Assembly (NCBI RefSeq): GCF_000168295.1
Contig: NZ_AAQJ02000001.1
Span: forward strand, 893,001 to 957,000
Length of the DNA stretch: 64,000 bases
Direction of reading: 5' to 3'
Source of the DNA: Rickettsiella grylli
GTDB lineage: Bacteria > Pseudomonadota > Gammaproteobacteria > Diplorickettsiales > Diplorickettsiaceae
The position numbers and the translations under genes are program-made. Shown one piece after another: positions 7,993-23,008 of this stretch. The number at the start of each line of letters is the position of its first letter. Within the stretch, counting starts at the first letter, position 1. The notes beneath the pieces were generated by a model. That model searched no databases. It was given only the letters and a program-made list of their open reading frames with translations, and was not told the origin of the DNA.

Positions 7993-8323
7993 AAAAATTA
8001 AGCTAGTTTTTGCGCGATTGCTTCAAAAAAATCATTCTATTTTTAGTATATACCGCCCCCTATTATTTTTAAATTTTCCCCGTCGTCTGTTTAAGAATTA
8101 ACCTTCAGTGAATGCGATAAAAGGAAACCCAACACCCGTATAAAATGTTAGCATCCTAAAATGAATGCGTTTTTTTGAATCATTCGACCCCTTTTTATTG
8201 CGGTTACTATATACTAGGGGTTCGAACACTTTACAATAGAATTTTACAATTTTTTTGTAACAGCGATTGACCATTCAATCGTTTTTATTTTTTAGGTGAG
8301 AACATTTAACATCTAGTATTTAT
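7993..8323. other. Divergent intergenic region between esterase and lptM
   Basis: A 331-bp AT-rich spacer between divergent genes, presumably holding both promoters. Several -10-like stretches occur (TATACT around 8210 on the plus strand, TAGAAT near 8050 on the minus strand) but none has a convincing -35 partner at the right distance. A GGTTCGAAC-like motif at 8218-8226 resembles a tRNA T-loop, but no acceptor or anticodon arms can be folded around it. No coding potential is seen. Confidence 0.5.
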
Positions 8324-8458
8324 ATGCAAACAAAAATTGGCTGTTCTCTTCTTTATTTAAGCGTTTTATTTTTTTTAACGGGATGTGGACAAATGGGCCC
8401 TTTATATCTCCCGCATCAAAAATCTTCCGTTCCTCCTTTTATGCAATCTGTCATCTAA
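8324..8458 (+). CDS. lptM: LptM-like small lipoprotein (YifL/LppL)
   Basis: A 44-residue lipoprotein. It begins with a short hydrophobic signal sequence ending in the lipobox 'LTGC' (Cys21), followed by the family hallmark 'GQMGPLYLP'. LptM/YifL proteins are outer-membrane lipoproteins that help assemble the LptDE lipopolysaccharide translocon. The position directly before lysA and dapF matches the lppL-lysA-dapF arrangement of pseudomonads and yifL-dapF of enterobacteria. The TAA stop overlaps the lysA ATG (TAATG), so the two are translationally coupled. Confidence 0.9.
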   Translation: MQTKIGCSLLYLSVLFFLTGCGQMGPLYLPHQKSSVPPFMQSVI

Positions 8459-9711
8459 TGTCTTTTATTTATTTCGATCACATTTTACAGGCAGAAGCGA
8501 TCCCCATTACTCAATTAATAACGCATTATGGCTCACCTTGTTATATTTATTCTAAATCCCGTTTATATGAACAATGGTGTGCCTTTAAATCTTTCATCCA
8601 GAACGGACATCAGATTTGTTATGCGGTCAAAGCGAATTCAAATCTCGCTATTTTAGCGCTTTTAGCCCACTGGGGCGCCGGATTTGACATTGTATCCGGC
8701 GGTGAATTCGATCGCGTACTTCGCGCCGGTGGGCATGCAGAAAACACGGTATTTTCTGGTGTCGGTAAAACCTGCGAGGAAATCAAATCCGCCTTATTCG
8801 CCCACATCGGTTGTTTTAATGTCGAGTCCAGTGGTGAATTATTCCGAATCGAAGCACTTGCCAAAAACATAGGTGCGGTGGCACCGATTGCTTTACGTGT
8901 CAATCCGAATATCGATCCCAAAACCCACCCCTATATAACCACGGGTTTAAACGACACTAAATTTGGTTTAAACGAAAAGGATGCCTTAACACTTTATCGT
9001 TATGCGGCGCAATCAAACCATTTAACGATTCGTGGAATCAGTTGTCATTTAGGTTCACAAATCACAACCATCGATCCTTTTCTACAGGCGTTAGAACATC
9101 TTTTGAAACTCACTGAAGCATTAAAAAAAGAACATATTTTATTAAAAACAATTAATTTAGGCGGTGGCTTAGGCGTGACTTATCAAACTGAAAACGTTCC
9201 ATCGGTTCAAGAATATAGTCAAAAAATTTTAGCATTGCTCAAAAAAAGAAACTCAACACTCACTTTAATCCTCGAACCAGGTCGTGCACTGATAGCCCAA
9301 GCGGGTATATTGGTCACTAAAGTGGAGTACCTTAAATCAAACCATCGTAAACATTTTGCGATTGTCGATGCGGGTATGAATGACCTCATTCGCCCCGCCT
9401 TATATCAGGCTGAGCACGCTATTTTACCTATCGTTCAACGTTCTCTTCCCCGTAAAAAAAAATATGATATTGTTGGTCCCATTTGCGAAAGTAGTGATTT
9501 TTTTGGTAAAAATCGCGAACTCGTCTTACGCGCGGGTGATTACTTAGCCATTATGGACAGTGGTGCTTATGGTTTTTCAATGAGTTCCAACTATAATTCT
9601 AGACCAAGAGCCGCCGAGCTTATGGTTGACACGGATCGCGTGTTTTTAATTCGCTCACGTGAAACGTTAGCACAATTATTGGCCAATGAAACGATACCTC
9701 CTATCTCCTAA
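8458..9711 (+). CDS. lysA: Diaminopimelate decarboxylase
   Basis: PLP-dependent enzyme for the last step of lysine synthesis (meso-diaminopimelate to lysine). The alanine-racemase-like barrel carries the PLP lysine in 'CYAVKANSN' (near residue 58), the glycine-rich phosphate loop 'NLGGGLG', and 'EPGRALIA'; the C-terminal domain has the substrate-binding 'CESSDFFG'. The start was set at 8458 (Met-Ser-Phe-Ile-Tyr), giving 417 residues. A longer open frame from 8383 would add 25 residues read through the lptM gene in another frame and is rejected. Confidence 0.96.
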   Translation: MSFIYFDHILQAEAIPITQLITHYGSPCYIYSKSRLYEQWCAFKSFIQNGHQICYAVKANSNLAILALLAHWGAGFDIVSGGEFDRVLRAGGHAENTVFSGVGKTCEEIKSALFAHIGCFNVESSGELFRIEALAKNIGAVAPIALRVNPNIDPKTHPYITTGLNDTKFGLNEKDALTLYRYAAQSNHLTIRGISCHLGSQITTIDPFLQALEHLLKLTEALKKEHILLKTINLGGGLGVTYQTENVPSVQEYSQKILALLKKRNSTLTLILEPGRALIAQAGILVTKVEYLKSNHRKHFAIVDAGMNDLIRPALYQAEHAILPIVQRSLPRKKKYDIVGPICESSDFFGKNRELVLRAGDYLAIMDSGAYGFSMSSNYNSRPRAAELMVDTDRVFLIRSRETLAQLLANETIPPIS

Positions 9712-9724
9712 AATCGATAATTCC

Positions 9725-10555
9725 ATGAAAACTGAATTTATTAAAATGCATTTATTGGGTAACGACTTTGTTATTGTAGATACCTTACAACAACCGTTTA
9801 AACCGAGTGCTAAATTAATACGAAAATGGGCACATCGGCAACGCGGCATTGGCTTTGACCAACTGTTATTAATTGAAAAACCGCGTTCTCAATCGAAACA
9901 TTTTTATTATCGTATTTTTAATGCAAACGGGAATGAGGTCGCGCAATGTGGTAATGGTGCTTTATGTGTGACTCGATACTTAATCGAAAAAAAACGGTAT
10001 AAAAATCCCATCCATCTGATGACCATGAATAATCGTTTAGAACTCACCATGGAAGAAAGCGGCAAAGTCACGGCTAATTTAGGTCTACCGATTTTTGATC
10101 CGGAAAAAATTCCTTTTATCAACCCCTCAAAAGCCCCCATTCATCCTCTCGAAACGCCTTTTGGACGCTTTGATTGTTGTGTCCTTTCTTTAGGTAATCC
10201 GCATTGCGTGATACAAGTCAATTGTTTAGAAAAAGCACCCCTTGAAGACTTAGGACTTTATCTGAATCAACATCCGTATCCTTATTTTCCACAAGGGTGT
10301 AACCTGGAATTGATGAAAATTCGTGATCCCAAGCAAATCGATCTCCGTATTTATGAACGCGGCGTTGGGGAAACGCAAGCCTGTGGTAGCGGTGCCTGTG
10401 CAGCGGTGATTGCTGGACGGTTACTCAACCGACTCACTAAAAAAGTAAAGGTCAATTTACCAGGGGGGTTGCTGACCGTCCGATGGGAATCTGAACATTC
10501 ACCGGTTTTTCTACGCGGAACCCCCACTTATGTCTTTCGTGGTTCTATTGATTAA
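9725..10555 (+). CDS. dapF: Diaminopimelate epimerase
   Basis: Converts LL- to meso-diaminopimelate for lysine and peptidoglycan synthesis. The cofactor-independent racemase uses two cysteines, visible in 'AQCGNGALC' (near residue 73) and '[11 protein letters not shown]' (near residue 218). The start was placed at 9725 ('MKTEFIKMH', 276 residues), which matches the usual family length; the open frame extends 13 codons upstream into lysA. The gene follows lysA by 13 bp. Its stop overlaps the convergent fumC stop by 4 bp. Confidence 0.96.
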
Positions 10556-11961
10556 TCCACTCGCGGTCCCAGCATTTTTTTAGGATCAACGACTTTATCA
10601 AAGGTTTCCGCATCAAGATAACCCAATGCGACACAGGCCTCCCGTAAACTCATTTCTTCCTGTAACGCTTTATGCGCAATTTTAGCGGCTTTATCATAGC
10701 CAATGATAGGATTCAATGCCGTCACTAACATTAATGAGTTTTCAAGAAATTGTTTAATTTTAGTCTGATTCGCTTTTAAATCCTTCACGCAATAACGCGT
10801 AAATGAAATACACGCAGAACTTAACAGATCGACCGATTGTAAAAAGTTATAAATCATCAACGGTTTATACACATTCAGTTCAAAATTACCTTGGCTTCCT
10901 GCAAAGGTGATGGCGGCATCATTTCCCATCACTTGAATACACACCATTGTCATCGCTTCACATTGTGTCGGATTCACTTTACCCGGCATGATGGAAGAAC
11001 CAGGCTCATTTTCGGGTAAAATAAGTTCACCTAAACCTGAACGCGGGCCTGACCCTAACCAACGAATGTCGTTTGCAAGTTTCATTAGCGCACAGGCTAA
11101 GGTTTTAAGCGCCCCACTTGCAAACACTAAAGCCTCATGCGCGGCTAACGCAGAAAATTTATTTTTGGCTGAAACGAAAGGTAATTTCGTTTCTTGAGCA
11201 ATAAACTTTGCGGTTAATTCAGCAAATTTTGGATGCGTATTCAATCCTGTCCCCACCGCCGTGCCGCCTATCGCCAATTGATAAAGCCCTGGCAAGGTTT
11301 GTTCGATATGTGCTAATGCCGATTCTAATTGATCCACATACGCTGAAAATTCTTGACCCAATGTTAAAGGAACCGCATCTTGCAAATGCGTACGGCCTAT
11401 TTTAATAATCGCTTTAAATTCATGCACTTTTTCAATCAGTGCACCATATAAGGTTTGTACCGCAGGGATGAGTTTTTTGACCATCGCCACCGCAGCTGCA
11501 ATATACATTGCGGTGGGAAAGGTATCATTCGAGGATTGTGATTTATTCACGTGATCGTTGGGATGAATTGGTTTTTTAGTACCCCGTTCCCCGCCGGCTA
11601 GTTCGATAGCGCGATTGGCAATGACTTCATTCACATTCATATTGGTTTGCGTGCCGCTACCCGTTTGCCAAACGCGCAAAGGGAATTCAGCATCCAGTTG
11701 TCCCGATTTTACTTCATCGGCCACTTGAATGATTAAATCTGCATTCTCTTTTGTTAATAATCCTAATTCGAGATTCGCTTTTGCGGCCGCCTTTTTTAAA
11801 ATACCAAATGCATGGATAACCGCCAAAGGCATTTGTTCACCACCGATGTCAAAGTGACGCACACTTCGTTGCGTTTGCGAGCCCCAATAATGTTGCGCGG
11901 GAACGTTAATAGAACCCATACTATCGGTTTCAACACGGCTATTTTTTGAATTTTCAGACAT
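10552..11961 (-). CDS. fumC: Class II fumarate hydratase
   Basis: Iron-independent TCA-cycle enzyme interconverting fumarate and malate. The 469-residue protein shows the class II features: '[14 protein letters not shown]' (substrate site, residues ~98-111), 'SSNDTFPT', '[10 protein letters not shown]' with the His of the active site, and the mobile serine loop '[11 protein letters not shown]'. Length is typical of the fumarase/aspartase superfamily. Fumarase is preferred over aspartase on overall wording and '[10 protein letters not shown]'. It stands alone, convergent with dapF. Confidence 0.95.
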
Positions 11962-12077: not shown

Positions 12078-13064
12078 TTAATCCTCCATAAAGGGCATTT
12101 TAGATAATGCACCGGCTTGTTCATAAACACATTTCGGGACTAAATAACCGGGCAATCGTTCTCGCAACGCCTTTAAAAGCGGCTTCATCTTTTCTTCATT
12201 CACTGTAAAATGCGTCGCGCCTTGTACTTTGTCCAACCGATGTAAATAATAGGGTAAAATTCCACATTCAAATAAACGTTCACTCAAATGAACCAGTGCT
12301 TCAACCGAATCATTAACGCCTTTTAACAACACCGCTTGATTCAGAACGTGTATTTTTCGTTGACGACACTTTTCGATGGCTTGTTGAACAGAATCATTTA
12401 ATTCGTTCGCGTGGTTACAGTGTGTCACCAAAACAGGTTGCAATCGTGTTCCTGTCAATGCATTTAAAAGTGGAGTAGTCATTCGTTCGGGAATCACAAT
12501 AGGTAAACGGGAATGGATACGGACAATCTTTACGTGTGGAATAGCGGCGAGATCGTTGATACGGTGTTTCAAATAATCATCTTGCGCTAATAAGGGATCC
12601 CCTCCACTTAAAATAACTTCGCGAATAGACGTATCGGCTTGAATATATGCCACTATAGCGTGCCATGCCTTACCTCCCACTTTATTTTTTCCATACGGAA
12701 AATGACGACGAAAACAATAGCGACAATTGATTGCACAAGCGCCGGTCATCGTCAGCAATATGCGGCCATAATATTTATGCAATAAGCCCGGAAGCGGATT
12801 CGCGGCGTTTTCCTGTAACGGATCGTCACTAAAATCAGCCTGTATTCGCGCTTCGGCTGCGATTGGAAGCACTTGTTGTAAGAGGGGATCCGCAGGATTC
12901 CCTTTTTGCATTCTGTCAATAAAACCGCTTGGTACGCGCAAGGGAAATAATCTCGAGGCGTGCTGCGCAGCAGATAATAACTGGGGATTCAGTGCTAATC
13001 GATCCAGTAATTCGGCCGGATCAGCCACCGCTTCTTTGAGAAAGGTCTGCCAATTTTTTTTCAT
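12078..13064 (-). CDS. epmB: EF-P beta-lysylation radical SAM enzyme EpmB
   Basis: Radical-SAM 2,3-aminomutase that converts alpha-lysine to beta-lysine for modification of elongation factor P. The 328-residue protein has the Cys cluster 'CAINCRYCFRRHFPY' (CxxxCxxC, near residue 110) and the aminomutase-type 'ILSGGDPLL'. At this length it matches EpmB/YjeK, and it lacks the longer extensions of catabolic lysine 2,3-aminomutases. Its usual partners efp and epmA are not in this window. It follows the last barrel/beta-helix gene by 35 bp on the same strand. Confidence 0.92.
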   Translation of the reverse strand: MKKNWQTFLKEAVADPAELLDRLALNPQLLSAAQHASRLFPLRVPSGFIDRMQKGNPADPLLQQVLPIAAEARIQADFSDDPLQENAANPLPGLLHKYYGRILLTMTGACAINCRYCFRRHFPYGKNKVGGKAWHAIVAYIQADTSIREVILSGGDPLLAQDDYLKHRINDLAAIPHVKIVRIHSRLPIVIPERMTTPLLNALTGTRLQPVLVTHCNHANELNDSVQQAIEKCRQRKIHVLNQAVLLKGVNDSVEALVHLSERLFECGILPYYLHRLDKVQGATHFTVNEEKMKPLLKALRERLPGYLVPKCVYEQAGALSKMPFMED

Positions 13065-13099: not shown

Positions 13100-14896
13100 T
13101 TAAGCACAAGCCGTTATAGCGCCATTGACCCTACACGTCGTTCCATCATTAACCGTCACCGCTCCTCTTGCTATCGCAACGTGGGCGCCTTCAACACTTA
13201 AACTACTATCGAGAACGGTCATGCTGCTGCCACGCCCATTATGTAACGCAACCGCATTACCATTAACATTTTCATGAATAATATCAATTGACGAATTTAT
13301 AATACTAGTACTAGCATTCGTGTTTGATGAGGTTTCTATCCCTGTAAAGGGGAAAGCCCCCGTTCCCGTAAGCCGAATCGCTGAATCAATCACAAACGCA
13401 TTGTTATTCATAATTTCAATCCCAGTACCACCACCTACTAATTCAACATCCACTGTACTTTTTAGAACGATTAGATTTGAACCATAGGTTATAATTCCCA
13501 TTTGGGCAGCAAAAAAAAAGGTATTATCAATATATGTACCTATACCAACATTCTGTACAGAAAACGCATAACGATTGCTCACGGTCCCAATACTACTCCC
13601 TGTAATCACATTATTAGAGCCTTCTATTCGCACTCCCGTATCTGGAACAACTCCCAAGAAAGGGATCAGAATAATATTTTCTAAATGATTATTGCCGGTT
13701 AAAGTAAACGCACCACCAAACGTTGAACGTTCTGTGCCTGTGGCTGGCGCTGAATAATCCGCGGTCCGAGAATGGACGCTTTGGCCATTATTTAAGGTCA
13801 ACGGATTAATTCCAGGATTAATTGCAGCATAATTTCCCCCATTAAAATACATCCGCGTATTCGGTAATAACGTATTTAACGTATTAACACCCGCTTGGCT
13901 AAAGTCGGTGGGTCCACACGGGTTTTCAAACGTGCAATCGGCCAACGTTAAGTTGGTTCCGCCATTATCCGGCCCTCCCGTTTGACTAAAAAACGCAATA
14001 TTATCCTGGAGCACCTCGATTCGGCTGCCGCTTCCCCTTCCATATCGGATCGTTTGACTCGGTATCCCCGAACCATGACCCAAATTGGCGATATAACGTT
14101 CCACCGGATCCGTTAACCGTTCCGATAAACTCGGATCGGCCCAATGACCGTTCCGAACCCCTCCAAAACTAATCCCTAAACCACCCACGACCTGACTGTG
14201 TTGCCTATTATCGTAATTATAACGGGCAAAAACACGAACGTAATCGTCAAACCAATAATCCACTCCTGCACCGCCCCCGCGCACGTTTTCAGCATGCGGA
14301 ATCTCAAAAAAATAAGCGCCCACAACCGCTTTTAAAGGCACACCTGAAAATAACTGGTAACCCACGCGCGCATCGGCTCCATTACCCACCTGTTGCACTT
14401 CATTGAACGCCGTAAAAGATACCGTTCGTAGCTCACTGTGACCCGTAAAAAAAGAGGGGCCTGCCGTCGTGGATTCAATCCCTCCTAAATCATCACTGCG
14501 TCCTGCCACCGGAATATACGCATTCACCCGCGCATCCCAGCGACTTCCCATGACCTCTACACCCGGATTCGTTATCCAAAATCCACTGCTGTTTTCAACG
14601 CGTGAATGGCCTGCAAACACGTACCATCCGACTATCGCGGCATCATTGCTAATCCATCGATAACCTAAACCGACATCGCCGTACCACGCTTGATCCGTTC
14701 CGTAACCGCCTTGGGGATCTACATACAGATTATGCTGACCATCACCGTCTAAGGACACCATTAAATCCGCTCGACCCACCGTATACACGCCCGTATACGC
14801 TTCCGCTGAAAAACGCAGTAACGGTTCTCGCGCCTGAAGCGGGGCGATACACAATAAAAGAGGAAACGAAAGAAAAATACATTTAATCCATTGCAC
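13100..14896 (-). CDS. Barrel/beta-helix surface protein, copy A (inverse-autotransporter-like)
   Basis: A 598-residue secreted protein: signal peptide (residues 1-22, 'FLSFPLLLCIAPLQA'), then ~250 residues of alternating aromatic strands resembling the inverse-autotransporter beta domain ('VGLGYRWISNDAAIVG', 'GSRWDARVNAYIP'), a linker with two Cys, and a C-terminal repeat-rich region consistent with a right-handed beta-helix. The start is GTG at 14896 with an AAGGA six bases upstream. Its signal peptide differs from copies B-D, and its passenger from about residue 425 is unlike theirs. Only 47 bp separate it from copy B, so it is probably cotranscribed. A surface exposure or adhesin role is inferred. 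Confidence 0.75.
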   Translation of the reverse strand: MQWIKCIFLSFPLLLCIAPLQAREPLLRFSAEAYTGVYTVGRADLMVSLDGDGQHNLYVDPQGGYGTDQAWYGDVGLGYRWISNDAAIVGWYVFAGHSRVENSSGFWITNPGVEVMGSRWDARVNAYIPVAGRSDDLGGIESTTAGPSFFTGHSELRTVSFTAFNEVQQVGNGADARVGYQLFSGVPLKAVVGAYFFEIPHAENVRGGGAGVDYWFDDYVRVFARYNYDNRQHSQVVGGLGISFGGVRNGHWADPSLSERLTDPVERYIANLGHGSGIPSQTIRYGRGSGSRIEVLQDNIAFFSQTGGPDNGGTNLTLADCTFENPCGPTDFSQAGVNTLNTLLPNTRMYFNGGNYAAINPGINPLTLNNGQSVHSRTADYSAPATGTERSTFGGAFTLTGNNHLENIILIPFLGVVPDTGVRIEGSNNVITGSSIGTVSNRYAFSVQNVGIGTYIDNTFFFAAQMGIITYGSNLIVLKSTVDVELVGGGTGIEIMNNNAFVIDSAIRLTGTGAFPFTGIETSSNTNASTSIINSSIDIIHENVNGNAVALHNGRGSSMTVLDSSLSVEGAHVAIARGAVTVNDGTTCRVNGAITACA

Positions 14897-14943
14897 AAAT
14901 CATCCTTAAACGATTTTACATGCAAACATTTAGAAAAAATTTT

Positions 14944-16761
14944 TTAGGGACAAGCGACCACCGCTCCATTCACAACACACACCGTTCCTGCGCCAATATT
15001 TACAGGAAGGCCCGTCGCGATGAACGGATTCGTACCATCGACGTTCAAATCACTCTCTAGAACATTAATAGTACCACTATTGTTTTCGAGTACCACTGCA
15101 GCACCCGTATCATCATTACTAACGGCTATTTCCGAATGGGTCACCGCAACATCGCTATTGCTGAAGGTTCGTATGCCTACGGCAGCAGCGTTCGCCGATG
15201 ACCCTGCCACGCGAATCCTTGAATCAATAATCGAAATACTTCCACCCACTGCTAAAATCCCATTAACACCCACATTCTCTACATTAAGTAAATCCAATGT
15301 CAATGTACTATTTTGCATCGTAAAATTAGAATCGGTCGTAACCACACCTAGAATATTTGAAAAAATAGTTGATGCATCAACCCGTGTATTGTCGCCAAAA
15401 TTCTCAATAGCAAACAAATAACGATAGTTTGCAGTTCCAATACTACTCCCTGTAATCTGATTATTAGAGCCTTCTATTCGCACTCCCGTATCTGGAACAA
15501 CTCCCAAGAAAGGGATCAAAATAATGTTTTCTAAATGATTATTGCCGGTTAAAGTAAACGCGCCACCAAACGTTGAGCGATCAGACTCTGTTGCAGGCGC
15601 TGAATAATCTGCAGTCCGAGAATGGATGCTTTGGCCATTATTTAAGGTCAATGGATTAATTCCAGGATTAATTGCGAAATAGCTCCCCCCATTAAAATAC
15701 ATCCGCGTATTGGGTAATAACGTATTTAACGTATTAACACCCGCTTGGCTAAAGTCGGTGGGTCCACACGGGTTTTCAAACGTGCAATCGGCCAACGTTA
15801 AGTTGGTTCCGCCATTATCCGGCCCTCCCGTTTGACTAAAAAACGCAATATTATCCTGGAGCACCTCGATTCGGCTGCCGCTTCCCCTTCCATATCGGAT
15901 CGTTTGACTCGGTATCCCCGAACCATGACCCAAATTGGCGATATAACGTTCCACCGGATCCGTTAACCGTTCCGATAAACTCGGATCGGCCCAATGACCG
16001 TTCCGAACCCCTCCAAAACTAATCCCTAAACCACCCACGACCTGACTGTGTTGCCTATTATCGTAATTATAACGGGCAAAAACACGAACGTAATCGTCAA
16101 ACCAATAATCCACTCCTGCACCGCCCCCGCGCACGTTTTCAGCATGCGGAATCTCAAAAAAATAAGCGCCCACAACCGCTTTTAAAGGCACACCTGAAAA
16201 TAACTGGTAACCCACGCGCGCATCGGCTCCATTACCCACCTGTTGCACTTCATTGAACGCCGTAAAAGATACCGTTCGTAGCTCACTGTGACCCGTAAAA
16301 AAAGAGGGGCCTGCCGTCGTGGATTCAATCCCTCCTAAATCATCACTGCGTCCTGCCACCGGAATATACGCATTCACCCGCGCATCCCAGCGACTTCCCA
16401 TGACCTCTACACCCGGATTCGTTATCCAAAATCCACTGCTGTTTTCAACGCGTGAATGGCCTGCAAACACGTACCATCCGACTATCGCGGCATCATTGCT
16501 AATCCATCGATAACCTAAACCGACATCGCCGTACCACGCTTGATCCGTTCCGTAACCGCCTTGGGGATCTACATACAGATTATGCTGACCATCACCGTCT
16601 AAGGACACCATTAAATCCGCTCGACCCACCGTATACACGCCCGTATACGCTTCCGCTGAAAAACGCAGTAACGGTTCTCGCGCCTGAAGCGGGGCGATAA
16701 AAAAACACAAAAAAAAGAATGAAAATGAAAAAGTAAAAGTAAAAGTAATATTTTTAAACAT
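14944..16761 (-). CDS. Barrel/beta-helix surface protein, copy B
   Basis: A 605-residue paralogue of copy A with the same architecture. The signal peptide is low-complexity (alternating Thr-Phe and Ser-Phe pairs, then 'LCFFIAPLQA'). The barrel region is essentially identical to copies A and C. The passenger is a mosaic: its first part ('INPGINPLTLNNGQS', 'FLGVVPDTGVRIEGSNN') matches copy A, while the rest ('FAIENFGDNTRVDAST' onward) matches copies C and D, with small insertions (extra 'TL', 'NV', 'D'). It ends in a Cys pair near the C terminus ('VCVVNGAVVACP'), as the others do. Confidence 0.75.
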   Translation of the reverse strand: MFKNITFTFTFSFSFFFLCFFIAPLQAREPLLRFSAEAYTGVYTVGRADLMVSLDGDGQHNLYVDPQGGYGTDQAWYGDVGLGYRWISNDAAIVGWYVFAGHSRVENSSGFWITNPGVEVMGSRWDARVNAYIPVAGRSDDLGGIESTTAGPSFFTGHSELRTVSFTAFNEVQQVGNGADARVGYQLFSGVPLKAVVGAYFFEIPHAENVRGGGAGVDYWFDDYVRVFARYNYDNRQHSQVVGGLGISFGGVRNGHWADPSLSERLTDPVERYIANLGHGSGIPSQTIRYGRGSGSRIEVLQDNIAFFSQTGGPDNGGTNLTLADCTFENPCGPTDFSQAGVNTLNTLLPNTRMYFNGGSYFAINPGINPLTLNNGQSIHSRTADYSAPATESDRSTFGGAFTLTGNNHLENIILIPFLGVVPDTGVRIEGSNNQITGSSIGTANYRYLFAIENFGDNTRVDASTIFSNILGVVTTDSNFTMQNSTLTLDLLNVENVGVNGILAVGGSISIIDSRIRVAGSSANAAAVGIRTFSNSDVAVTHSEIAVSNDDTGAAVVLENNSGTINVLESDLNVDGTNPFIATGLPVNIGAGTVCVVNGAVVACP

Positions 16762-16954
16762 CTATTCGCTTCCATGCATTGAATCGTTTTTGAACGTGGA
16801 ATCTGTGAAATAGCTTTACGTTTAGAAGCTTTTTAATGGATGCTTTCCAACAATTGACGAGTATATACGTTTAATTTTATTCTGCCTACTGAATGGCTGC
16901 ATCTTCCATCATTCATAAAGACTTTTACGATTTTTGGGAATCGTTTAATGACGT

Positions 16955-17065
16955 TTACCCATTATCGGGTGGAATATTGAGCACGTGTAGTGCATGACTC
17001 ATGAGAACCGGGACGATACACAATAAAAGAGGAAACGAAAGAAAAATACATTTAATCCATTGCAC
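16955..17065 (-). other. Duplication-junction micro-ORF: copy-A signal peptide joined to FtsI tail
   Basis: In the 351-bp gap between copies B and C lies a 36-codon frame starting with GTG at 17065. It codes for the first 19 residues of copy A's signal peptide (with Ala to Val at residue 18) joined, through Val-Leu, to the last 15 residues of FtsI (ending 'VLNIPPDNG'). The ftsI-derived part is 16955-17004. The AAGGA upstream of copy A is preserved. Whether it is translated is unknown; it is most simply a scar of the duplication. The rest of the gap (16762-16954) is the duplicated upstream region. Confidence 0.7.
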
Positions 17066-17112
17066 AAATCATCCTTAAACGATTTTACATGCAAACATTT
17101 AGAAAAAATTTT

Positions 17113-18930
17113 TTAGGGACAAGCGACCACCGCTCCATTCACAACACACACCGTTCCTGCGCCAATATTTACAGGAAGGCCCGTCGCGATGAACGGATTC
17201 GTACCATCGACGTTCAAATCACTCTCTAGAACATTAATAGTACCACTATTGTTTTCGAGTACCACTGCAGCACCCGTATCATTACTAACGGCTATTTCCG
17301 AATGGGTCACCGCAACATCGCTATTGCTGGAGGTTCGTATGCCTACGGCAGCAGCGTTCGCCGATGACCCTGCCACGCGAATCCTTGAATCAATAATCGA
17401 AATACTTCCACCCACTGCTAAAATCCCATCAACACCCACATTCTCTACATTAAGTAAATCCAATGTACTATTTTGCATCGTAAAATTAGAATCGGTCGTA
17501 ACCACACCTAGAATATTTGAAAAAATAGTTGATGCATCAACCCGTGTATTGTCGCCAAAATTCTCAATAGCAAACAAATAACGATTGTTTGCAGTTCCAA
17601 TACTACTCCCTGTAATCTGATTATTTCCACTTTCCAGAGTCACCCCGGTATCTGGGAATCTTCCTACAATAGGGATCAAAATAATGTTTTCTAAATGATT
17701 ATTGCCGGTTAAAGTAAACGCGCCAGCAAACGTTGAACGTTCTGTGCCTGTGGCTGGCGCTGAATAATCCGCAGTCCGAGAATGCACACTTTGACCATTA
17801 TTTAACCTTAATGGGGTAGAGCCACCTCCCTCTTCACCCGCAGTATAACCTCCCCCATTAAAATACATCCGCGTATTCGGTAATAACGTATTTAACGTAT
17901 TAACAGCCGCTTGACTAAAGTCGGTGGGTCCACACGGGTTTTCAAACGTGCAATCGGCCAACGTTAAGTTGGTTCCGCCATTATCCGGCCCTCCCGTTTG
18001 ACTAAAAAACGCAATATTATCCTGGAGCACCTCGATTCGGCTGCCGCTTCCCCTTCCATATCGGATCGTTTGACTCGGTATCCCCGAACCATGACCCAAA
18101 TTGGCGATATAACGTTCCACCGGATCCGTTAACCGTTCCGATAAACTCGGATCGGCCCAATGACCGTTCCGAACCCCTCCAAAACTAATCCCTAAACCAC
18201 CCACGACCTGACTGTGTTGCCTATTATCGTAATTATAACGGGCAAAAACACGAACGTAATCGTCAAACCAATAATCCACTCCTGCACCGCCCCCGCGCAC
18301 GTTTTCAGCATGCGGAATCTCAAAAAAATAAGCGCCCACAACCGCTTTTAAAGGCACACCTGAAAATAACTGGTAACCCACGCGCGCATCGGCTCCATTA
18401 CCCACCTGTTGCACTTCATTGAACGCCGTAAAAGATACCGTTCGTAGCTCACTGTGACCCGTAAAAAAAGAGGGGCCTGCCGTCGTGGATTCAATCCCTC
18501 CTAAATCATCACTGCGTCCTGCCACCGGAATATACGCATTCACCCGCGCATCCCAGCGACTTCCCATGACCTCTACACCCGGATTCGTTATCCAAAATCC
18601 ACTGCTGTTTTCAACGCGTGAATGGCCTGCAAACACGTACCATCCGACTATCGCGGCATCATTGCTAATCCATCGATAACCTAAACCGACATCGCCGTAC
18701 CACGCTTGATCCGTTCCGTAACCGCCTTGGGGATCTACATACAGATTATGCTGACCATCACCGTCTAAGGACACCATTAAATCCGCTCGACCCACCGTAT
18801 ACACGCCCGTATACGCTTCCGCTGAAAAACGCACCGGTAACGGTTCTCGCCCGTAAAGCGGGGCGATAAAAAAACACAAAAAAAAGAATGAAAATGAAAA
18901 AGTAAAAGTAAAAGTAATATTTTTAAACAT
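17113..18930 (-). CDS. Barrel/beta-helix surface protein, copy C
   Basis: A 605-residue paralogue. The signal region repeats Thr-Phe/Ser-Phe pairs and ends 'APLYGREPLPVR' instead of 'APLQAREPLLR'. The barrel half is the same as in copies A and B. The passenger carries 'GGYTAGEEGGGSTPLRLN' and 'IPIVGRFPDTGVTLESGNN', shared only with copy D, and is practically identical to D throughout. It has its own ~190-bp upstream region that duplicates the one before copy D, so it may be transcribed independently. Confidence 0.75.
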   Translation of the reverse strand: MFKNITFTFTFSFSFFFLCFFIAPLYGREPLPVRFSAEAYTGVYTVGRADLMVSLDGDGQHNLYVDPQGGYGTDQAWYGDVGLGYRWISNDAAIVGWYVFAGHSRVENSSGFWITNPGVEVMGSRWDARVNAYIPVAGRSDDLGGIESTTAGPSFFTGHSELRTVSFTAFNEVQQVGNGADARVGYQLFSGVPLKAVVGAYFFEIPHAENVRGGGAGVDYWFDDYVRVFARYNYDNRQHSQVVGGLGISFGGVRNGHWADPSLSERLTDPVERYIANLGHGSGIPSQTIRYGRGSGSRIEVLQDNIAFFSQTGGPDNGGTNLTLADCTFENPCGPTDFSQAAVNTLNTLLPNTRMYFNGGGYTAGEEGGGSTPLRLNNGQSVHSRTADYSAPATGTERSTFAGAFTLTGNNHLENIILIPIVGRFPDTGVTLESGNNQITGSSIGTANNRYLFAIENFGDNTRVDASTIFSNILGVVTTDSNFTMQNSTLDLLNVENVGVDGILAVGGSISIIDSRIRVAGSSANAAAVGIRTSSNSDVAVTHSEIAVSNDTGAAVVLENNSGTINVLESDLNVDGTNPFIATGLPVNIGAGTVCVVNGAVVACP

Positions 18931-19123
18931 CTATTCGCTTCCATGCATTGAATCGTTTTTGAACGTGGAATCTGTGAAATAGCTTTACGTTTAGAAGTTT
19001 TTTAATGGATGCTTTCCAACAATTGACGAGTATATACGTTTAATTTTATTCTGACTACTGAATGGCTGCATCTTCCATCATTCCTAAAGACTTTTACGAT
19101 TTTTGGGAATCGTTTAATGACGT

Positions 19124-19234
19124 TTACCCATTATCGGGTGGAATATTGAGCACGTGTAGTGCATGACTCATGAGAACCGGGGCGATACACAATAAAAGAG
19201 GAAACGAAAGAAAAATACATTTAATCCATTGCAC
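19124..19234 (-). other. Second copy of the signal-peptide/FtsI-tail junction micro-ORF
   Basis: The same chimeric 36-codon frame in the 351-bp gap between copies C and D, exactly 2169 bp from the first. Here residue 18 is Ala as in copy A, so this version is the less changed. The ftsI-derived part is 19124-19173; the copy-A-derived part starts about 19179 and keeps its ribosome-binding site. The remaining gap (18931-19123) repeats the region upstream of copy D. No other coding potential is seen there. Confidence 0.7.
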
Positions 19235-19281
19235 AAATCATCCTTAAACGATTTTACATGCAAACATTTAGAAAAAATTTT

Positions 19282-21105
19282 TTAGGGACAAGCGACCACC
19301 GCTCCATTCACAACACACACCGTTCCTGCGCCAATATTTACAGGAAGGCCCGTCGCGATGAACGGATTCGTACCATCGACGTTCAAATCACTCTCTAGAA
19401 CATTAATAGTACCACTATTGTTTTCGAGTACCACTGCAGCACCCGTATCATTACTAACGGCTATTTCCGAATGGGTCACCGCAACATCGCTATTGCTGGA
19501 GGTTCGTATGCCTACGGCAGCAGCGTTCGCCGATGACCCTGCCACGCGAATCCTTGAATCAATAATCGAAATACTTCCACCCACTGCTAAAATCCCATCA
19601 ACACCCACATTCTCTACATTAAGTAAATCCAATGTACTATTTTGCATCGTAAAATTAGAATCGGTCGTAACCACACCTAGAATATTTGAAAAAATAGTTG
19701 ATGCATCAACCCGTGTATTGTCGCCAAAATTCTCAATAGCAAACAAATAACGATTGTTTGCAGTTCCAATACTACTCCCTGTAATCTGATTATTTCCACT
19801 TTCCAGAGTCACCCCGGTATCTGGGAATCTTCCTACAATAGGGATCAAAATAATGTTTTCTAAATGATTATTGCCGGTTAAAGTAAACGCGCCAGCAAAC
19901 GTTGAACGTTCTGTGCCTGTGGCTGGCGCTGAATAATCCGCAGTCCGAGAATGCACACTTTGACCATTATTTAACCTTAATGGGGTAGAGCCACCTCCCT
20001 CTTCACCCGCAGTATAACCTCCCCCATTAAAATACATCCGCGTATTCGGTAATAACGTATTTAACGTATTAACAGCCGCTTGACTAAAGTCGGTGGGTCC
20101 ACACGGGTTTTCAAACGTGCAATCGGCCAACGTTAAGTTGGTTCCGCCATTATCCGGCCCTCCCGTTTGACTAAAAAACGCAATATTATCCTGGAGCACC
20201 TCGATTCGGCTGCCGCTTCCCCTTCCATATCGGATCGTTTGACTCGGTATCCCCGAACCATGACCCAAATTGGCGATATAACGTTCCACCGGATCCGTTA
20301 ACCGTTCCGATAAACTCGGATCGGCCCAATGACCGTTCCGAACCCCTCCAAAACTAATCCCTAAACCACCCACGACCTGACTGTGTTGCCTATTATCGTA
20401 ATTATAACGGGCAAAAACCCGAACGTAATCGTCAAACCAATAATCCACTCCTGCACCGCCCCCGCGCACGTTTTCAGCATGCGGAATCTCAAAAAAATAA
20501 GCGCCCACAACTGCTTTTAAAGGCACACCTGAAAATAACTGGTAACCCACGCGCGCATCGGCTCCATTACCCACCTGTTGCACTTCATTGAACGCCGTAA
20601 AAGACACCGTTCGTAGCTCACTGTGACCCGTAAAAAAAGAGGGGCCTGCCGTCGTGGATTCAATCCCTCCTAAATCATCACTGCGTCCTGCCACCGGAAT
20701 ATACGCATTAATCCGAGCATCCCAGCGACTTCCCATGATCTCTACACCCGGATTCGTTATCCAAAATCCACTGCTGTTTTCAACGCATGAATGACCGGCA
20801 AACACGTACCATCCCACTATCGCGGCATCATTGCTAATCCATCGATAACCTAAACCAACATCGCCATACCATTCTTGATCCGTTCCGTAACCGCCTTGGG
20901 GATCTACATACAGATTATGCTGACCATCACCGTCTAAGGACACCATTAAATCCGCTCGACCCACCGTATACACGCCCGTATACGCTTCCGCTGAAAAACG
21001 CGGTGGTAACGGTTCTCGCGCCTGAAGCGGGGCGATAAAAAAACACAAAAAAAAGAATGAAAATGAAAAAGTAAAAGTAAAAGTAAAAGTAATATTTTTA
21101 AACAT
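19282..21105 (-). CDS. Barrel/beta-helix surface protein, copy D (first in array)
   Basis: A 607-residue paralogue, the first of the array in the direction of transcription and 193 bp downstream of ftsI. Its signal peptide has one more Thr-Phe pair than copies B and C because of one extra 6-bp unit. The barrel has a handful of private substitutions ('TDQEWYGD', 'GHSCVENSSG', 'GVEIMGSRWDARINAY'), making it the most diverged barrel, while its passenger equals that of copy C. Signal peptide, barrel and beta-helix order as in the other copies; function inferred as surface display. Confidence 0.75.
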   Translation of the reverse strand: MFKNITFTFTFTFSFSFFFLCFFIAPLQAREPLPPRFSAEAYTGVYTVGRADLMVSLDGDGQHNLYVDPQGGYGTDQEWYGDVGLGYRWISNDAAIVGWYVFAGHSCVENSSGFWITNPGVEIMGSRWDARINAYIPVAGRSDDLGGIESTTAGPSFFTGHSELRTVSFTAFNEVQQVGNGADARVGYQLFSGVPLKAVVGAYFFEIPHAENVRGGGAGVDYWFDDYVRVFARYNYDNRQHSQVVGGLGISFGGVRNGHWADPSLSERLTDPVERYIANLGHGSGIPSQTIRYGRGSGSRIEVLQDNIAFFSQTGGPDNGGTNLTLADCTFENPCGPTDFSQAAVNTLNTLLPNTRMYFNGGGYTAGEEGGGSTPLRLNNGQSVHSRTADYSAPATGTERSTFAGAFTLTGNNHLENIILIPIVGRFPDTGVTLESGNNQITGSSIGTANNRYLFAIENFGDNTRVDASTIFSNILGVVTTDSNFTMQNSTLDLLNVENVGVDGILAVGGSISIIDSRIRVAGSSANAAAVGIRTSSNSDVAVTHSEIAVSNDTGAAVVLENNSGTINVLESDLNVDGTNPFIATGLPVNIGAGTVCVVNGAVVACP

Positions 21106-21298: not shown

Positions 21299-23008
21299 TT
21301 ACCCATTATCAGGTGGAATATTGAGCACGTGTAGTGCATGACTCATGACATGCGAAAAAATGGGTCCTGCTGTATAGCCTCCATAATAGCGTTTACCTTT
21401 TGGATCATGCACCATCACAGCAACCACCAGACGCGGCCGACTGGCCGGTGCAATACCGATAAAGAGACTATTATAATGGTGTTTTTCATAACCTTGCGCG
21501 CCAACGATGCGCACGGTACCGGTTTTTCCGGTAACGCGGTAGCCAGGAACACGCGCTAAAGGCGCCGTTCCCTCTTTTGTCAACACCGACTCTAACATGT
21601 CTAATATTTCTCGACTAATTTTTTTATCGAGCACCCGTTGCCCAACAGGAACTTCTGTTTCAGGTACTTTGAGAAAAGTAACCGGTAACTTAATGCCTTC
21701 GTGCGCCAACACAGCGTACGCTTGTGCAAGTTGTAACGCCGTTACTGAAATACCGTAGCCAAACGATAAGGTTGCTAATACAAATGGATTCCATACTTTA
21801 AAATGGGGGAGACTACCAGTTCGTTCGCCAGGGAAACCACTTTGTGTAATTTGACCAAAGCCGACTTGATGGAGCGTATTCCATAAATTTTCTGCAGGAA
21901 GCGAAAGAATAAGCTTTGACATCCCCATATTACTTGAAATTTGTAATATTTTCGTTAAATCCATGACGCCATTATTGTGTTCATCCCGAATGCGTTTGCC
22001 CGCGACGATCATCCAGCCCGGATTCGTATCGATCGGACTCTCTGGCGTAAATCGACCACTGGCTAATACGCTGGCCATACTCAAACTTTTAATCGTTGAT
22101 CCCGGTTCAAACAAATCCGTTAATGCCCGGTTCCGAGTCTGACCCTTGTGTGTTGTTAATCGATTATTGGGGTTATAAGATGGCCAATTAACCATGGCTA
22201 AAATTTCACCCGTTTTTACATCCAGTACAACAACCGATCCAGAATCTGCTTGATAGCGCTCGATTCCTGACTTCAGCTCTCTAAAAGCGATATATTGGAT
22301 TCGTTTGTCAATACTTAATGTTAAATTATGTCCTGATCGTGGCGGACGTATCGATCGGATATCGGCGACGATATGCCCTAGCCTATCTTTAATCACTTTT
22401 TTTAAACCGGATTGACCCGTTAACCACGAATTATAAGCAAGCTCCAAGCCTTCTTGACCTTTATCATCGACGTTCGTTAAACCCACGATATGTGCCATTA
22501 CGGGGCCTTCTGGGTAATAACGATGATATTCTTTTTGTGAAAAAACACCCGGTATTTTTAGATTCTTGATGTGTTGGGCATACTGTGGATTTAAACCCCG
22601 TTTTAAATAAACAAATTCTTTATATCGACCATGTAAAACCATTTCATGAATGTTTTGTGGACTGATCTGTAGCCAATGACTTAAATTCAAACGTTGTTGT
22701 TTTGTGGGCTTAAAATAAGTGGGATCGACCCAAATAGCCACGACGGGCGTACTGACTGCTAAGGGTTCGCCGTGTCGATCGAAGATGATACCGCGATGTG
22801 CGGGAATAGTGACTGTCCGTATGGTTCTTGCATTCCCTTGATGTTGTAAAAATTGTCGATTAATAATGGTTAAATTGACAAGTCTTGCGATCAACCCCAA
22901 CGCAATCAACAATAAAATGAACACGATGATCATTAAACGCCATTGATAAGTCGAGAAGGTTAACCTACGATTGTTTTTTTTGAGATCCGGCATGAAACGC
23001 TTACTCAA
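21299..23008 (-). CDS. ftsI: Septal peptidoglycan transpeptidase PBP3
   Basis: Class B penicillin-binding protein that cross-links septal peptidoglycan during division. A single N-terminal membrane anchor (residues ~24-47) is followed by the pedestal domain and the transpeptidase domain. The three penicillin-binding motifs are visible: SxxK at Ser304 in 'EPGSTIKS', 'SSN' in 'ISSNMGMS', and 'KTGT' in 'VTGKTGTVR'. At 569 residues the length is typical. It lies 129 bp downstream of ftsL. The usual next gene, murE, is absent; the barrel/beta-helix array follows instead. Confidence 0.96.
   Translation of the reverse strand: MSKRFMPDLKKNNRRLTFSTYQWRLMIIVFILLLIALGLIARLVNLTIINRQFLQHQGNARTIRTVTIPAHRGIIFDRHGEPLAVSTPVVAIWVDPTYFKPTKQQRLNLSHWLQISPQNIHEMVLHGRYKEFVYLKRGLNPQYAQHIKNLKIPGVFSQKEYHRYYPEGPVMAHIVGLTNVDDKGQEGLELAYNSWLTGQSGLKKVIKDRLGHIVADIRSIRPPRSGHNLTLSIDKRIQYIAFRELKSGIERYQADSGSVVVLDVKTGEILAMVNWPSYNPNNRLTTHKGQTRNRALTDLFEPGSTIKSLSMASVLASGRFTPESPIDTNPGWMIVAGKRIRDEHNNGVMDLTKILQISSNMGMSKLILSLPAENLWNTLHQVGFGQITQSGFPGERTGSLPHFKVWNPFVLATLSFGYGISVTALQLAQAYAVLAHEGIKLPVTFLKVPETEVPVGQRVLDKKISREILDMLESVLTKEGTAPLARVPGYRVTGKTGTVRIVGAQGYEKHHYNSLFIGIAPASRPRLVVAVMVHDPKGKRYYGGYTAGPIFSHVMSHALHVLNIPPDNG

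Follow-up and report, generated by a model that had tools for sequence, protein, structure and literature searches.

A tandem array of predicted inverse autotransporters with uniform barrels and diverse beta-helix passengers in Rickettsiella grylli

The Pmps of chlamydiae are classical autotransporters (type Va); their barrel is C-terminal, and they carry repeats of the motifs FxxN and GGA(I,L,V). Both the Msp2/p44 proteins of Anaplasma and the Bab adhesins of Helicobacter are surface families shaped by gene conversion. In the inverse autotransporters (type Ve), passages of two papers present immunoglobulin (Ig)-like or lectin domains as the typical passengers (PMC6555100, PMC6714894), and an excerpt of a third describes Big motifs in the family (PMC3008723). 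For Rickettsiella itself, the R. isopodorum genome paper mentions an autotransporter, A1D18_00810, whose passenger is pertactin-like (PMC5181103). We found no open-access paper that pairs Rickettsiella with inverse autotransporters or inverse autotransporters with gene conversion, nor any on the array described below; subscription literature lay mostly outside the search and absence from print is not established. Here we analyse a stretch of 64,000 nucleotides from Rickettsiella grylli, hereafter the window (contig C1, positions 893001-957000, of a genome of 1,581,239 bases in two contigs), which carries four tandem genes. They are likely to form a type Ve array in which the barrel has been homogenised by gene conversion while the passengers are diverse, providing a repertoire for surface binding.

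The four genes are intact open reading frames (ORFs) on the minus strand, arranged head to tail with an ftsI-like gene on one side and a radical-SAM gene on the other. The first gene after ftsI is g4 (19282-21105, 607 residues), followed by g3 (17113-18930, 605 residues), g2 (14944-16761, 605 residues) and g1 (13100-14896, 598 residues, with a GTG start). An earlier note on this DNA had placed four tandem genes of about 600 residues at 13100-21105 in a probably reduced genome; the coordinates are exact and the genome size is 1.58 Mb. The near-identity of the barrels that it reported is also confirmed: over residues 33-280 of g2, which we used as the comparison window (744 nucleotides), 744/744 positions agree among g1, g2 and g3, and g4 differs from them at 15/744. 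The claim of four variable passengers overstated the variation, in that g1 is divergent and g2 is a mosaic but g3 and g4 show no difference through the linker (225/225 nucleotides) and the passenger (747/747) to the stop codon. The g2 passenger agrees with that of g3 or g4 at 681/741 nucleotides (91.9%), its first coils being g1-like and the remainder g3/g4-like. For the g1 passenger the agreement with the other three is 455/729 to 484/732 nucleotides (62-66%; 50-54% of amino acids with gaps counted), values that for such divergent passengers vary with the alignment chosen. Instead of four passenger types, the array contains about two and a half.

The longest exact run is 987 bp between g1 and g2 and 919 bp both between g1 and g3 and between g2 and g3; such runs are far beyond chance, and they stop abruptly. 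The 919-bp tract occupies 13899-14817 in g1, 15749-16667 in g2 and 17915-18833 in g3, all on the minus strand. Since the signal peptide of g1, upstream of the tract, differs from that of the other copies, as does its passenger on the other side, the identical block is internal. No synonymous difference was found at 184.5 barrel sites between g1 and g3, compared to a synonymous divergence (dS) of 0.95 in their passengers.

The same contrast is seen elsewhere in the genome. A second tandem pair, array B (L015:5523-7339 and 8676-10600; G000:C1 at about 1467.5-1472.6 kb), has identical signal peptides and barrels (714/714 nucleotides) within an exact run of 866 bp that includes both, and passengers that are 51% identical in nucleotides; the barrels show 0 synonymous differences at 173 sites versus a passenger dS of 1.36. 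This pair is the clearest example of a uniform barrel joined to a variable passenger. We compared 22 within-array pairs (6, 1 and 1 from arrays A, B and C of this genome, 6 from G4, 3 from G9, 3 from G5 and 2 from G1), using one genome per species here and in all other comparisons. The barrels were at least 79.7% identical in nucleotides in all 22 pairs (79.7-100%), and the passengers were at most 66.1% identical in 18; the four exceptions, with passenger identities of 91.9-100%, were g3-g4, g2-g4, g2-g3 and the C1-C2 gene pair of this genome.

We also examined the congruence of barrel and passenger trees inferred from 19 genes at the locus. The passenger tree groups genes by position across G4, G5 and G9 (support 100/100 for type 2 and 97/98 for type 1), and the passenger data reject a grouping of the G9 genes (approximately unbiased (AU) test, p 4.9e-42). 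With the barrel data, by contrast, the type 1 group is rejected (AU p 1.1e-7), so that the two genealogies conflict. For G4 and G5, flanking genes yielded dS values of 0.07-0.08; the type 1 barrel (0.06), the type 2 barrel (0.03) and the type 4 passenger (0.09) were close to these values, and the type 4 barrel (0.18) and the type 1 passenger (0.77) were above them. Such unevenness across pieces is expected if the pieces have been exchanged. The suggestion in the earlier note that recombination underlies the identity of the barrels is supported by the absence of synonymous differences, the conflict between trees and the long exact runs.

The locus is conserved in related bacteria. Family members were present in 10/10 genomes of the genus searched, its own included, and the order ftsI, array, radical-SAM gene could be read in eight, with 4 copies in the R. 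grylli genome and G004, 3 in G005 and G009, 2 in G001 and 1 in G002, G007 and G008. In G003 the ftsI locus is cut within the gene by contig ends on both sides. A second locus in this genome is broken at the identical pair of positions, and the two loci share exactly 55 nucleotides at each edge of the barrel segment; such breaks would be expected of a short-read assembly if the two loci had the same barrel but different signal peptides and passengers. A search of the G006 assembly did not find the radical-SAM gene. Beyond the genus, the barrel profile matched 14/16 genomes of the taxonomic family, a search at the level of the order returning the same 16 genomes, and 22/369 genomes in a sample of the class, which indicates that this type of barrel is distributed more widely than the family. 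Nine loci were taken from the class sample (L092-L100) and five were scanned against Pfam. One Legionella plasmid in a plasmid collection gave a match (30% identity over 62% of the query), and viral contigs gave none. Several broken barrel copies with in-frame stops, which are either decaying copies or poor sequence, occur in G010 (same family, other genus) and in G007 (C1 at about 721.2-721.6 kb).

We modelled g2 with AlphaFold from an alignment of 15 sequences (mean predicted local distance difference test (pLDDT) score 73.9; by block, 44-78 in the barrel, residues 31-250, and 71-96 in the passenger, residues 301-605). In this model the barrel is N-terminal (residues 30-288; 15898-16674, minus strand) and a helix is C-terminal (residues 301-605; 14947-15861, minus strand). 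The predicted barrel fold resembles that of intimin and invasin, whose beta-domains took ranks 1-3 among PDB structures in a Foldseek search; VIA placed these matches at residues 28-288, with Z scores of 23.7, 23.6 and 23.2 for 219-222 aligned residues at root-mean-square deviations of 2.5-2.8. Residues from about 301 to 605 matched right-handed beta-helices, namely alginate lyase, epimerases, tailspikes and the adhesin PfbA (Z up to 22.5), and a second structure prediction, for g1, again returned a helix in the passenger (best Z 23.3). The passenger is accordingly modelled as a right-handed beta-helix in both passenger types, and the inverse autotransporter-like barrel and C-terminal beta-helix postulated in the earlier note both appear in the g2 model. 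All four proteins have a hydrophobic N-terminus, read from the sequence as a putative signal peptide; that of g4 (about 21060-21105) has an in-frame hexamer repeat one unit longer than in g2 and g3. Searches of the window proteins gave no Pfam match to LysM or Ig-like domains, only a chance match in NCBIfam and no match to PDB sequences. We accept them as inverse autotransporters with an atypical passenger, the barrel model being the weakest link in this assignment.

In each protein, a signal peptide would be followed by an intimin/invasin-like barrel in the outer membrane, then by a linker and finally by a beta-helix at the C-terminus, outside the cell. Gene conversion, or an equivalent unequal exchange, would keep the barrel halves of neighbouring genes alike as the passengers diverge or are swapped, and each passenger type would keep its position from one species to another. 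The genome encodes RecA and two Omp85-family proteins, which we count in favour of this reading. Several observations weigh against it. Confidence in the barrel is moderate in the g2 model, and in the g1 model most of the barrel has a pLDDT below 50 and gives no intimin or invasin match, so that fold prediction recovered the helix in both proteins but the barrel in g2 only. Likewise, the profile search for the inverse autotransporter family succeeded for 21 of the 30 family matches listed, orthologues at the ftsI locus among them, but the window genes score 16.0-17.2 bits against the Pfam IAT_beta (PF11924) cut-off of 22.3. The barrel data reject the type 2 group only marginally (AU p 0.045), and the barrel tree does not unite all G9 barrels, a group that the barrel data neither show nor reject (AU p 0.22). 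Several branches of the passenger tree are long, which drew a warning from the tree program, and the ratio of nonsynonymous divergence (dN) to dS in the passengers is below 1 in the pairs examined, with no pairwise sign of positive selection.

Passenger dN nevertheless exceeds that of ftsI (0.232 for G5_2-G9_2 versus 0.043 for ftsI in G5-G9). The most likely function of the different beta-helices is to bind different host surface molecules as adhesins; exposure at the surface, adhesion and a benefit of variety are inferred. If the hosts are arthropods, as they are for this genus, escape from antibodies, which invertebrates do not have, is an unlikely purpose of the variety. Most family members have 4 cysteines, and the type 2 passengers G4_2, G5_2 and G9_2 (L052:8547-10352, L054:9955-11775 and L053:9840-11651) have 2, the C-terminal pair being absent. 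Plus-strand ORFs of 130-133 residues run antisense within the passengers of g2 (15020-15421), g3 (17189-17581) and g4 (19358-19750) and are not present in g1; they are probably mechanical.

Could the pattern have arisen in other ways? Plain tandem duplication without conversion, in which the barrel is under purifying selection and the passenger is less constrained, would account for barrels that are conserved in every array and for a low barrel dN between species. However, selection at the protein level does not preserve synonymous sites, which are unchanged in the barrels of g1-g3 and array B next to strongly diverged passengers, and the genealogical conflict and the abrupt ends of the 919-987 bp runs speak against it as well; this explanation is very improbable and, for this genome, already contradicted. 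A recent duplication of the whole gene, after which one copy gained a foreign passenger by recombination, is possible though doubtful as the full account. It is in line with the mosaic passenger of g2, with the elevated dS of the G4_1-G5_1 passenger relative to the flanking genes, and with array B, where the identical run takes in the signal peptide and the change lies on the passenger side only. The g1 signal peptide, on the other hand, differs too, ahead of the tract, and would require the exchange of an internal barrel segment. Probably both barrel conversion and passenger replacement occur.

Among readings of the function, we consider it unlikely that the beta-helix is a displayed polysaccharide-active enzyme of the lyase or epimerase kind. 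The best fold matches of the passenger are alginate lyases, epimerases, glycoside hydrolases and depolymerase tailspikes, but the fold is widespread and includes the adhesin PfbA. Moreover, 0 of the 18 helix columns that are at least 90% conserved among 34 family members hold a charged residue or histidine, an argument against a single enzyme common to the family, although individual copies could still be active. Antigenic variation by switching, with one expressed copy and the rest serving as donors, fits the near-identical tandem flanks, the mosaics and the broken copies elsewhere in the family. It is quite improbable, given four intact ORFs with putative signal peptides, an upstream region of 0.35 kb that is common to three of the repeat units, and invertebrate hosts devoid of antibodies. 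The intactness of all four ORFs gives the array the look of a repertoire rather than of one expressed gene with silent donors. Finally, the near-exact 12-kb copy between opposite ends of C1 (see below) hints that repeats may be mishandled in this assembly, but the window copies bear distinct, ordered differences, and tandem copies stand at the same locus in the single-contig genomes G005 and G009, with three each. An assembly artefact is therefore highly improbable as the source of the array reported in the earlier note: related genomes, four of them assembled as a single contig, have 1-4 copies at this locus.

The spacing between copies (1,850, 2,166 and 2,169 bp) and two remnants of ftsI point to how the array may have grown. 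Copies of the last 49 bp of ftsI open the g3 repeat unit (19124-19172, minus strand) and the g2 repeat unit (16955-17003, minus strand). In both units a fragment of g1-type DNA, from the upstream and signal-peptide region, is attached to the ftsI copy, which it precedes in the case of g3. In the simplest history, an ancestral pair would have consisted of one gene beside ftsI plus g1; a unit of 2.17 kb, reaching from the tail of ftsI as far as the beginning of g1, would then have been tandemly duplicated twice, raising the copy number, with conversion among g1, g2 and g3. The ftsI-like gene (21299-23008, minus strand), the conserved upstream neighbour, has transpeptidase and penicillin-binding protein dimerisation domains in Pfam, and the conserved downstream neighbour is the radical-SAM gene (12078-13064, minus strand), which we take to be EpmB/KamA-like. 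A scan for promoters and terminators returned 15 promoter-like sites versus 17.1 expected, providing no evidence of promoters.

A third pair of family genes in the genome (L013:4545-8057 and 8267-11239) has long passengers, the proteins measuring 1171 and about 991 residues, and differs chiefly by one large internal repeat unit. The contig also contains a 12-kb repeat (G000:C1:1-12060 and C1:1543835-1555929; L012, L013) with 0 mismatches and 2 gaps, which is either a real duplication or an assembly error. It ends at an ORF that is presumably transposase-like, and a one-base difference in a short run of As splits one copy of the autotransporter gene that it contains.

The array resembles intimin, invasin, E. 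coli YeeJ and FdeC in having an N-terminal barrel, with a fold match to the first two, and a C-terminal passenger, and it resembles type Ve more generally in that relatives pass the IAT_beta profile. It differs from these four in that the passenger is a single predicted beta-helix, in both passenger types, in place of Ig-like or lectin domains, that LysM is not matched, and that the genes form tandem arrays with uniform barrels. Display of a beta-helix, familiar from classical autotransporters, would then also be carried by inverse ones. As in Msp2/p44 and Bab, recombination appears to act among paralogues with common DNA; unlike in those families, the membrane part is what is homogenised, and a layout with an expression site and silent donors was not seen at the ftsI locus. 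Concerted evolution would in this case fix the membrane part as the exposed part varies. The locus offers a syntenic site for following surface diversification in Rickettsiella-like bacteria of arthropods; the stretch from ftsI to the radical-SAM gene shows both the number of copies and the type of passenger.

We can tentatively go further and imagine the barrel as a recombination handle, its identical DNA allowing passenger cassettes to move between tandem copies, between loci and, in the longer term, between species, although we would not bet on it. The ftsI locus might then, with similar reserve, be viewed as a modular site of surface display at which passenger types hold their places in different species while barrels turn over. 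The chlamydial Pmps, too, are encoded by intracellular bacteria as multigene, often tandem sets of beta-helix surface proteins; in the window proteins, however, the barrel is N-terminal and the order inverted, and the Pmp motifs are rare, with 0-3 FxxN and 0-1 GGA[ILV] per passenger in 34 members. The likeness is at most convergent, and if the barrel does serve as a handle, the array would be an inverse autotransporter counterpart of the chlamydial Pmp arrays, separately evolved in Rickettsiella-like bacteria.

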